Source of the DNA: Leptolyngbyaceae cyanobacterium
GTDB taxonomy: Bacteria > Cyanobacteriota > Cyanobacteriia > Cyanobacteriales > Aerosakkonemataceae
Assembly (NCBI GenBank): GCA_036703985.1
Contig: DATNQN010000008.1
Span: 1-64,000 of the forward strand
Direction: 5' to 3'
Length of the DNA stretch: 64,000 nt
In this document: positions 52,231 to 54,739 of the stretch, piece by piece
Layout of the letters: each line of letters begins with the position of its first letter
Numbering within the stretch: position 1 is the first letter of the stretch
Made by a program: the position numbers and the translations under genes
Notes under the pieces: model-generated
Told to the model about the DNA's origin: nothing
The model's database searches: none
The model's input: the letters and a program-made list of their open reading frames with translations, nothing else

Positions 52231-52461
52231 TTAATTTCCAGCAGAGTTACGGAATAAAGTTTCCAGATATACTTGGGCAGCCCGACGATAGCTACGGGAT
52301 GTTTCCGGTGTGTTACTAGTACCGTTTTGCAGTAAAAATAGGGAGAGCGCAGCAGTAAATACCCGGTCTTGATCCCAATCTGGATGAGTTTCTAAGTAGG
52401 TTTTGAGGGATTCGTGGAGTACTTCTGGGATTTCAGCCAGCATACTAACATTTGTGTTCAT
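52231..52461 (-). CDS. DUF2811 family protein
   Basis: 76 residues from the ATG at 52461, with GAGGTG at good distance. The frame is open to 52587 but that extra part is low-complexity and made of GTGAGTGG repeats. Core VSMLAEIPEVLHESLKTYLE ... DWDQDRVFTAALSLFLLQNG. A small helical cyanobacterial protein of unknown function. Confidence 0.85.
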   Translation of the reverse strand: MNTNVSMLAEIPEVLHESLKTYLETHPDWDQDRVFTAALSLFLLQNGTSNTPETSRSYRRAAQVYLETLFRNSAGN

Positions 52462-52866
52462 GGGCACCTCACAGGAAGAGGGGTGAAGGGGCAGGGGCAG
52501 AGCAGGTGAGTGGGTGAGCGGGTGAGTGGGTGAAAGGTAAGGACACAGCAGCCGAACTAATTTCTGAATTCTGAATGAATATTTCATCTTTCAGGCTTTA
52601 TCCCTTGTCTTTGTCCAATCACCGATCGCTAATTTCGATCGCGTATATAGGTCAGCCGCATCATTGTCGTCTAAGAGGGGGTGGGGTTGTCAATGCTGCG
52701 AAATGTTAAGACTGCCTTTATAAAAACTACATGATTACGAAACAATAGGACTTTCAGCCCTATTTTTGTTACATTTCTTTATTAAAACTGGTTTGATTTG
52801 AGCTATTAGAGGATTTCTCAAAAAATCCCCAGCGTGACATGAAGAGCTTATGCAGTCGTTTAAACC

Positions 52867-52985
52867 TGTGGAAAACTATTTAGACTCTGTGGAAAACTTT
52901 CTGCTAGGCTGTGGAAAGAGTGTGGAATCAGTGGGGAAATTTTTGGCAAAAGATAAGAATTGCAAAAAATTCGGTCTGTGGAAAC
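52867..52985. other. Cluster of DnaA-box-like sites; candidate replication origin
   Basis: Five TGTGGAA(A/T)N sites in one orientation: TGTGGAAAA at 52867 and 52888 (exact reverse complement of the cyanobacterial DnaA box TTTTCCACA), TGTGGAAAG at 52910, TGTGGAATC at 52921 and TGTGGAAAC at 52977, with a weaker GTGGGGAAA at 52931. Start-to-start distances are 21, 22, 11 and 56 bp, close to whole helical turns. An AT-rich stretch lies to the left (about 52730-52830). This accounts for most of the 592-base gap between DUF2811 and the HD-GYP gene. No dnaA or dnaN is in the window. Confidence 0.55.
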
Positions 52986-53053: not shown

Positions 53054-54739
53054 TCAATAATTAAGGATATGACCCAAAACTGAAAAAACTTGCTGTTGCT
53101 CGAAAAGCTCCACCAGATCGAGATTAATTTTATTTTTATGAGCTTCTTGTCGAAGTATTTGCAGGGCGGTGGAGACTGGTAATCTGTCTTTATAGGGGCG
53201 ATCGCTGGCAGTCAGCGCATCGTAGATATCCGCGATCGTCAAAATCTGAGTTTGGATCGGAATATTCTCTTCACTCAAGCCTTGGGGGTAGCCGCTACCA
53301 TCGAGCTTTTCATGATGGGCGTAGGCGATTTTAGGGATATTTTTCAGATGTTTCGTCCAGGGAATGCGCTGGAGAAATTTGTAAGTGTGAGTAACGTGGG
53401 CTTCGATCGCTAAGCGCTCTTGATGGGTGAGATTACCTCTAGGTAACATGAGTTGAGCCATTTCCTCTAAAGAAACCAAGGGCTTAAGCTGACCGTCAAT
53501 GTCTCGATATTTATACTCGGCTAGTTGTGTGAGTTGGGCGAGGGCTTCTTCTGATAAAGCCTTAAATTTACTAGTTTCCAGGGCTTCCGGTTCATTTACT
53601 TCGATAATTAGTTGCCAGTATTTATTCAGTTTTTCGATACTTTGAGCTAACTGGATATCCAGTTGTTCGACTTCTTGACAACAAGTACAACGGCTTTGGG
53701 AAGTTTCTTTGAACAAATGAGAGCGATCGGACAGCCCTAGCAGATATTGATATTTAGATTGAGTAACTTCCATTTCTAGGGTTCGTTGGGCGAGGGCGAA
53801 GCGCTGGCGAAGAATTTCCAGTTGTTCGGGGTAGAGCTTTTTCCGCTTGCCTAAAATGGCTTCCGGGACGCAAACTTTACCGAAGTCGTGCAAGAGAGCG
53901 GCGTAACGAATTTCTTGGATTTGCCGATCGTTAAAATGAAGCGATCGCAAAGGCCCGCTATTCACTGCATCGATCTGTTGGCTAAGCGCCATCACCAGTT
54001 GAGCGACTCGTTCCGAATGACCCGATGTGGTGGGGTCGCGCATTTCAATCAGTTCGACGGAAGCTTTCACGAATCCCTCGAACAAATTTTCGATACTTTC
54101 CTGTAGTTGATTGCGTTCGATGGAGATAGCGGCTTGGGAAGCTAGCGATCGCAAAAGTCTTTCTTCCCAATCCGAATAGGGCTGCGTGACTTTAGCCACG
54201 TTATCCACGGTAATCACTGCATCGTGCTTGATTTTACGATTGATCAGTTGCAGGATGCCGATTACTTCTCCATCTTGGTTTTGCATCGGCAGCACCAATA
54301 CCGAGCGAGTACGGTAGGAAAAAGTTTCATCAAAACTCTTATCTAGCTGGTATTCGATCTCTGCTGGTAAATCGTAAGCATCTGGCAAACTCAAGCTTTT
54401 ACCGGTGAGGGCTACATAACCAGCCAGACTTTTGCCATTGAGGGGCATGGCAAATTCTTCTAAGGTGATGTGGGGCTGAGAATCATTTTGGGCGGCTTTA
54501 AAGATCAGTTTAGGGATGGCGTCGCTATGATCGATCAGGTAAACGCTACCAGCATCGCTACACGTAATTTCCCGACTCTTTGACAAGATCAAATTCAGCA
54601 ATTCCCCTAAATTTTGACTGCTAGAAAGAGCGGTACCGATCGCTAACAGCTGCTCGATTAATTCCACTTGCTGAGCAGATTCTTGGAGCATAAGTTCGTG
54701 GTTGGGAAGGGGGATCAGCTGGGTATCGAGAACTATCAT
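53054..54739 (-). CDS. GAF-HD-GYP c-di-GMP phosphodiesterase-like protein
   Basis: 561 residues. A GAF domain (about 25-210) is followed by an HD-GYP domain whose HD pair is His284-Asp285 (LLHDFGK) and whose second metal motif is HHEKLDGSGYP (475-485). Between them lies an insertion of about 130 residues (300-430) containing a Cys cluster CTCC (351-354). HD-GYP enzymes degrade c-di-GMP. The only leftward gene in this part; the DnaA-box cluster lies just downstream of it. Confidence 0.92.
   Translation of the reverse strand: MIVLDTQLIPLPNHELMLQESAQQVELIEQLLAIGTALSSSQNLGELLNLILSKSREITCSDAGSVYLIDHSDAIPKLIFKAAQNDSQPHITLEEFAMPLNGKSLAGYVALTGKSLSLPDAYDLPAEIEYQLDKSFDETFSYRTRSVLVLPMQNQDGEVIGILQLINRKIKHDAVITVDNVAKVTQPYSDWEERLLRSLASQAAISIERNQLQESIENLFEGFVKASVELIEMRDPTTSGHSERVAQLVMALSQQIDAVNSGPLRSLHFNDRQIQEIRYAALLHDFGKVCVPEAILGKRKKLYPEQLEILRQRFALAQRTLEMEVTQSKYQYLLGLSDRSHLFKETSQSRCTCCQEVEQLDIQLAQSIEKLNKYWQLIIEVNEPEALETSKFKALSEEALAQLTQLAEYKYRDIDGQLKPLVSLEEMAQLMLPRGNLTHQERLAIEAHVTHTYKFLQRIPWTKHLKNIPKIAYAHHEKLDGSGYPQGLSEENIPIQTQILTIADIYDALTASDRPYKDRLPVSTALQILRQEAHKNKINLDLVELFEQQQVFSVLGHILNY

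Follow-up and report, generated by a model that had tools for sequence, protein, structure and literature searches.

A conserved array of DnaA boxes upstream of the cyanobacterial DUF2811 gene: probably a DnaA-operated control region and not a chromosomal origin

In cyanobacteria, the described pattern of the chromosomal origin (oriC) is a cluster of the 9-mer TTTTCCACA beside dnaN (excerpts of PMC4674748). As far as the available parts of the sources report, this cyanobacterial DnaA box was bound by domain IV of DnaA in EMSA with the Cyanothece oriC, where two of the three boxes were bound in the footprint (PMC4674748), and DnaA was detected by ChIP-qPCR at the oriC of S. elongatus (PMC6478999). 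According to a further source, consulted in part, dnaA is dispensable in Nostoc PCC 7120, Synechocystis PCC 6803 and Synechococcus PCC 7002, and the function of DnaA remains unclear where cyanobacteria keep dnaA yet replicate without it (Ohbayashi et al. 2020; PMC7198777). Sites outside oriC are described from other bacteria. In the sections available on B. subtilis, several intergenic sites outside oriC are bound by DnaA, which also makes direct contact with the promoter regions of sda and of other genes that it regulates (PMC8203912). The E. coli loci datA, DARS1 and DARS2, which are non-coding and lie outside oriC, are presented, in the available parts of PMC4585315, as groups of DnaA boxes that keep their internal spacing and come with additional binding blocks. 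The intergenic cyanobacterial site described here shares its location outside oriC with the former, and its conserved spacing and extra blocks with the latter.

The window, i.e. the whole stretch of DNA that was analysed, comprises 64,000 nucleotides from the genome of a Leptolyngbyaceae cyanobacterium (G000; 7.68 Mb in 151 contigs). The site occupies the intergenic region that separates the 3' end of a GAF/HD gene (53054-54739) from the DUF2811 gene (52231-52461); the two genes share the minus strand. The original prediction had described five TGTGGAA sites in a single orientation at distances of 21, 22, 11 and 56 bp, two of them exact cyanobacterial DnaA boxes, and had read them as a helically phased DnaA-box cluster and a candidate oriC. 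Inspection of the sequence and a motif scan recovered all five sites, with starts at 52867, 52888, 52910, 52921 and 52977 and the same spacings, and confirmed two exact copies of TTTTCCACA on the minus strand (52867-52875 and 52888-52896). Four of the five sites belong to a conserved element; the fifth, the isolated box GTTTCCACA (52977-52985, minus strand), falls outside it in the alignment and has no counterpart in the other rows. The tally was also short by one, as the weak unit ATTTCCCCA at 52932-52940, which is in register at 11 bp, had not been counted. The terms 'DnaA-box cluster' and 'helically phased' are both supported, and more firmly than could be known from the window.

Same-strand TTCCACA sites reached a maximum of four within 70 bp in the window, whereas the maximum in 200 dinucleotide shuffles was one (194 shuffles) or two (6 shuffles). 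A genome-wide count of box clusters, suggested earlier as a check, was carried out on the complete 7.68 Mb. The pattern TTTTCCACA-N0-30-TTTTCCACA occurred five times, its reversed control not at all. The five occurrences are at three places, namely the window site, contig C70 and the dnaA-dnaN intergene. The pattern TGTGGAA-N2-32-TGTGGAA occurred 10 times in the whole genome, compared with three times for its control, and eight of the 10 occurrences were at the same three places. The array on C70 (C70:139823-139873 of G000; L005, L384) is a second one outside oriC, with two exact copies of TTTTCCACA 22 bp apart in head-to-tail orientation and ATTTCCACA 20 bp further on, and sits between the 3' ends of guaA-like and cation-efflux-like genes (named by eye). 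Small arrays resembling it were seen at G041:C1:1684427 and G016:C1:2785644.

The window site is very probably not the chromosomal origin. The original prediction had named a densest cluster elsewhere, for example at dnaN, as evidence against an origin here, and this is where it was found. At C21:5795-5968, flanked by dnaA (C21:4300-5709) and dnaN (C21:6165-7346), seven exact boxes plus near matches occur within 174 bp in both orientations, compared with two exact boxes at the window site. Since a cluster of TTTTCCACA beside dnaN matches the described cyanobacterial oriC, the reading of the window site as an origin was abandoned. The remark that dnaA and dnaN are not near the site was correct, as both are on contig C21. 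Moreover, in the complete relative G081, which has a clear GC skew, the cumulative minimum was at 4.62-4.68 Mb (sampled in 20-kb stretches), beside dnaA at position 1108 of the 4.68-Mb contig; the element is located at 3.75 Mb, about 0.9 Mb away. The sampled GC skew was irregular in G276, G315 and G211. The oriC reading was rejected on the dnaA-dnaN cluster of the own genome and the skew minimum of G081.

In four dnaA-carrying genomes of family f13 (G048, G395, G354 and G192), the only strict box pairs genome-wide were at the element and the dnaN neighbourhoods contained at most one exact box, so the role of the element appears separable from initiation at oriC. No exact pair was found near dnaA in the two f13 genomes inspected for this (G048 and G395). 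Two further genomes, G016 and G176, had no exact box at dnaN, yet strict pairs elsewhere. A four-box core at L230 (G018:C1:2841765) has the 11-54-9 spacing of the dnaN-side cluster of G163. The dnaA (C1:1045) and dnaN (C1:4139893) genes of G018 are each over 1 Mb away from this core, which is possibly a relocated oriC core. In family f39, oriC was not found within 16 kb around dnaA of G125. A second match resembling the DNA polymerase III beta subunit (38.6 bits, in a 495-aa open frame) was observed away from dnaN at C85:16746-17123 of G000.

We examined the DNA upstream of DUF2811 in other genomes. Similarity searches found DUF2811 in 51 of 60 genomes, including our own. All 30 loci taken from this 60-genome search, own included, had at least one exact TTTTCCACA upstream of DUF2811, and 27 of them had an exact pair 21 bp apart (L041, L045 and L047 are variants). 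When L041 was omitted, the other 29 loci aligned almost without gaps from TTTGCAATTCTTAT across the boxes and TGGGGATTT as far as the promoter. All 30 loci were used to build a model of 162 positions, R1. In the own genome, match positions 2-155 of R1 covered 52814-52967 on the minus strand (109.7 bits, E = 3.4e-31), and the runner-up, at oriC, scored 25.9 bits.

All parts of the conserved element and its surroundings are on the minus strand, and we list them from the upstream side. The upstream edge of the array is formed by the block AATTCTTAT (52953-52961; inside TTTGCAATTCTTATCTTTT), which is highly conserved in the 30 aligned loci. It is followed by the unit ATTTCCCCA, a weak DnaA-box-like sequence whose columns are conserved in the same alignment, by a second weak unit, GATTCCACA (52921-52929; 11-bp register, from sequence and alignment), and by the DnaA box CTTTCCACA (52910-52918), which has one mismatch to TTTTCCACA in the motif scan and is conserved in the alignment. 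Of the two strong, exact boxes, the upstream one has near-invariant alignment columns, and the start of the promoter-proximal one is 182 bp away from that of the -35 element. Further downstream, the alignment reveals the conserved block TGGGGATTT (52823-52831), which may be a degenerate inverted box, given an inverted TTATCCACA downstream of the array in two f39 genomes, a conserved TGTAACA (52767-52773) in the interval between array and promoter, and a conserved block AACATTTCG (52699-52707) adjoining the -35 element. TTGACA at 52688-52693 was assigned as the -35 element from the box-TTGACA distance across loci, and GACAAT at 52663-52668 as a -10-like element from its position; ACAAT or AAAAT was seen by eye at about this distance in most of the promoters displayed. 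Together they form a putative DUF2811 promoter, whose activity we infer from sequence. The gene itself encodes 76 aa (PF10929, E = 4e-28 with 52231-52470 scanned); the ORF list begins the frame at an earlier ATG (52231-52587).

The arrangement was followed in 80 named cyanobacterial loci, i.e. the best 80 of 536 by DUF2811 similarity, many of them metagenome-assembled, which span Argonema, Okeania, Trichodesmium, Moorena, Microcoleus, Nostoc, Arthrospira, Pleurocapsa, Pseudanabaena, Acaryochloris and others. R1 matched upstream of DUF2811 in 77 of these best 80 (weakest score 17.9 bits; Nostoc loci L203 and L205 are among the carriers of the element), and the three misses have short flanks of just 281 (L143), 10 (L180) and 59 bp (L182) upstream. 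Box spacings in the 77 loci were 11 (93 times), 21 (90), 22 (55) and 12 bp (17), with every other value occurring once; control sequence of the same loci contained two pairs within 60 bp. This is a DnaA-box cluster outside oriC with conserved spacing, as in sites of the datA/DARS type. In 72 loci, a strong box and a TTGACA stand 150-240 bp from each other; when the pair nearest 183 bp was picked per locus, the distance was 181-186 bp in 57 of them. The unselected offsets peak at 182-184 bp too, with the next box at 203-205 bp. The remaining eight of the 80 loci were without a pair in this range. The interval between TTGACA and the ATG ranged from 63 to 417 bp. Hence, the boxes hold a conserved position relative to the putative promoter, as at DnaA-regulated promoters. 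An HD-GYP gene neighboured the site in just 13 of the 80 loci, compared with 80 of 80 for DUF2811 (flanks up to 3 kb, some short), and a role of this upstream gene was rejected. From the near-fixed box-TTGACA distance and this difference between the two neighbours, the array appears to be linked to the promoter, and the pair of them to DUF2811.

Co-occurrence with dnaA was studied in an even sample of 386 genomes of the phylum (requested completeness at least 90%). DnaA domain IV was found in 363 of the 386 genomes, and R1 at E = 1e-6 or better in 111, in a search with stricter filters in which weak matches are lost. Within the window's order, represented by the 105 genomes listed (the tables were sorted by kinship and the same-order rows taken as complete), the element was present in all 86 genomes with dnaA and absent from 18 of the 19 genomes without dnaA, G215 being the exception. 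Element and dnaA are associated (Fisher's exact test, p = 2e-19, ignoring kinship), and by this genome comparison the upkeep of the boxes would depend on DnaA. We repeated the search with full scoring for the 19 genomes without dnaA, for 19 genomes with dnaA chosen within the same families or families next to them, and for G203 and G151. Genomes with dnaA scored 40-104 bits. Among those without dnaA, G215 scored 55.6 bits, G180 and G297 scored 27 and 26 bits, with matches that are remnants at the locus, and the rest at most 23.5 bits. Strict box pairs anywhere in the genome occurred in 19 of 19 genomes with dnaA, versus two of 19 without (G049 and G297).

DUF2811 itself was absent from 13 of the 19 same-order genomes without dnaA and from none of the 86 with dnaA, and the copies in G335 and G180, which are without dnaA, contain stops. 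The genomes without dnaA G401 and G021 kept the DUF2811 frame and the block AATTCTTA, with no box within one mismatch; in G021, the longer DUF2811 match contains a TAG and the domain match is free of stops. These are the most telling cases; as their present sequences read, the boxes of at least two genomes have disappeared ahead of the gene. R1 was trained on DUF2811-upstream DNA, and the 13 genomes without DUF2811 are therefore not independent tests of the boxes. The independent tests among genomes without dnaA are six, of which five (G021, G401, G335, G180 and G297) are without an intact array and one (G215, 55.6 bits) has one. On a dnaN tree of 27 genomes, which includes seven of the 19 genomes without dnaA, with the other 12 outside it, the dnaA state changes five times. 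Among 200 pairings of independent pairs, agreement was 5-0 in 131, and 4-0 plus one tie in the other 69; with five pairs, the test cannot reach p = 0.05. Lineages that lost dnaA lose the boxes and often lose or break the gene, and this comparison points to DUF2811 being of use chiefly to cells that have DnaA.

Several genomes deviated from the general pattern. Nine of the 60 genomes were without a DUF2811 match; three of these (G015, G022 and G049) are without dnaA, and the other six (G002, G025, G027, G032, G039 and G040) were outside the dnaA survey. No genome of family f41 was among the 111 with R1 matches, though f41 genomes have dnaA and two to five DUF2811 genes. Two f41 loci were inspected, of which L118 contains two boxes 11 bp apart and L114 a single box. 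Small f41 genomes (1.6-3.7 Mb, e.g. G350, G358 and G391) have two to five DUF2811 matches each. G203 (family f42, with dnaA) scored 29.0 bits beside dnaA, and the matches at its two DUF2811 genes reached only 23.1 and 20.2 bits. The sole R1 match of G360 at 1e-6 was not beside its DUF2811. Matches in G144, G133 and G166 (31-39 bits) do stand upstream of DUF2811, the copy downstream of the match in G144 being just 36% identical to the best query. In family f39 (G125 and G270; L392 and L391), the DUF2811-upstream array consists of six or seven boxes of the TTATCCACA/TTATCCCCA type, not TTTTCCACA, mostly spaced by 10-11 bp and with an inverted TTATCCACA downstream. A different candidate box type is found here at the same place upstream of DUF2811, and this change could be matched against the residues of DnaA domain IV.

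Copies outside the chromosome were found as well. DUF2811 matched 13 plasmid records from Nostoc, Acaryochloris, Aulosira and Leptolyngbya. Among the nine plasmid loci fetched (L398-L406), seven had R1 upstream of DUF2811 (39.5-59.9 bits), with L398 and L405 being without the element, and in L399, L401, L402, L403 and L404 the last strong box was 182-183 bp from TTGACA, as calculated from positions. With R1 and this distance retained, the array, the putative promoter and the gene occur jointly as a unit outside the chromosome. The plasmids with DUF2811 are mostly large, four of the nine were typed as conjugative, and one Nostoc plasmid copy lies near a ParM/StbA gene. No DUF2811 match was found in 50,697 phage records.

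The only Pfam match of the DUF2811 protein above chance level was PF10929. NCBIfam contained no match, and among solved structures there was no significant relative (best E = 0.45). AlphaFold2 models had mean pLDDT values of 57.8 and 61.6, too low for a fold search, and contained helices only. By eye, the N-terminal half recalls what we take to be a ribbon-helix-helix protein, although these low-confidence models show helices only. The name DUF2811 was not found in the open-licence PMC literature searched, and titles and starts of abstracts in this literature yielded no description of the element.

We consider it probable that DnaA acts at this site to control the DUF2811 gene from upstream, and that the site is not an origin. 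The two strong boxes, head-to-tail and 21 bp from each other, would bind DnaA, which would spread from there to two or three weaker boxes at distances of 11-22 bp on the upstream side; all of the boxes are predicted to face the same side of the helix. The resulting nucleoprotein array would stand at a near-fixed distance, mostly 182-184 bp or about 17 helical turns, upstream of the TTGACA promoter that is predicted to transcribe DUF2811, and would switch the gene by the level or the nucleotide state of DnaA. Binding of DnaA at the element, for which the binding of TTTTCCACA at the cyanobacterial oriC speaks, its cooperative assembly and the control of DUF2811 transcription are what we infer. 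Compared with classical bacterial activators or repressors, the array is a long way from the -35 element, about 180-250 bp upstream, and this counts against the reading, as do the f41 genomes, G203 and the two plasmid loci without the element.

An explanation that we regard as unlikely is a site that titrates or modulates DnaA like E. coli datA or DARS, which would store, inactivate or recharge DnaA, with the proximity of DUF2811 being secondary. Such a site would account for several boxes with a conserved flanking block AATTCTTAT, as datA and DARS2 pair their boxes with IHF or Fis sites (available parts of PMC4585315), and for conserved spacing and loss of the element with dnaA. However, if DUF2811 were a bystander, a near-fixed distance from the array to its promoter, its joint occurrence with the element on plasmids and its own loss in most genomes without dnaA would all be unexpected. 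A conserved distance between element and dnaA was not seen in complete genomes either; calculated by hand from coordinates, it is about 0.1 Mb in G076 and about 2.4 Mb in G067. A chromosomal replication origin, perhaps a second or ancestral one, is very improbable, even though strong and weak boxes cluster beside AT-rich DNA and the four f13 genomes with dnaA have their sole strict pairs at the element, with at most one exact box in the dnaN neighbourhoods examined. The denser dnaA-dnaN cluster of the own genome and the sampled skew minimum of G081 beside dnaA contradict it, conservation of a promoter and of the linkage to a single gene is not what marks an origin, and the published read depth of Synechococcus PCC 7002 peaks around dnaA in the part of PMC7198777 available.

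The array might also serve another transcription factor with a DnaA-box-like site, the co-loss of DUF2811 and dnaA being indirect, e.g. through genome erosion in symbionts. The flanking blocks AATTCTTAT, TGTAACA and AACATTTCG suggest that further proteins bind, some of the genomes without dnaA are small, and published cyanobacteria without dnaA include symbionts (PMC7198777, in part). We nevertheless judge this improbable, as the boxes are erased in G401 and G021 while flank and gene remain, genomes without dnaA of up to 5.9 Mb are also without the element, and the strict pairs separate the genomes with dnaA from those without (19 of 19 vs. two of 19). The TTATCCACA form in f39 is, moreover, another known form of the DnaA box (PMC4674748, in part). 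A structured RNA, such as a leader or riboswitch, could be suspected from the long conserved intergenic stretch, and is extremely improbable: none of the four predicted pairs in the array part had changes on both sides, Rfam gave no match for the element, and RNA was rejected on these two results. The array also lies upstream of the putative promoter, and its conserved features are boxes and spacing.

Control of DUF2811 by DnaA therefore remains our preferred reading, and we tentatively extend it to a dedicated cyanobacterial DnaA-DUF2811 circuit. The array would sense active DnaA and set the level of DUF2811, which would feed back on DnaA or couple the state of replication to another process. 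Such a circuit might be an ancestral second function of DnaA, persisting where DnaA is dispensable for initiation, collapsing on loss of dnaA, and present on large plasmids as well. The element is a concrete candidate for the role of DnaA in cyanobacteria that replicate without it, as it comprises one site and one gene and its upkeep follows dnaA in the sampled order. DUF2811 gains its first functional lead, and the locus illustrates that clusters of DnaA boxes alone can mislead origin prediction.

Compared with known systems, the element uses the same DnaA-bound 9-mer TTTTCCACA as the cyanobacterial oriC at dnaN (in the available parts on Cyanothece 51142, PMC4674748, and S. elongatus, PMC7198777 and PMC6478999). 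The oriC boxes of the own genome, however, occur in both orientations by dnaN, whereas those of the element are head-to-tail before DUF2811. The excerpts of PMC4585315 do not describe datA and DARS as the promoter-upstream region of one gene, and these loci use IHF and Fis sites. Unlike at sda, the array described here is near-fixed across much of a class of bacteria, the -35 element follows it at a distance of about 180-250 bp, and its presumed target is DUF2811, a protein of 76 aa with PF10929 as its only Pfam match. Sda itself is a small protein. By analogy, the nearest known logic would be the direct control by DnaA of a gene such as sda, with datA/DARS as the main alternative.
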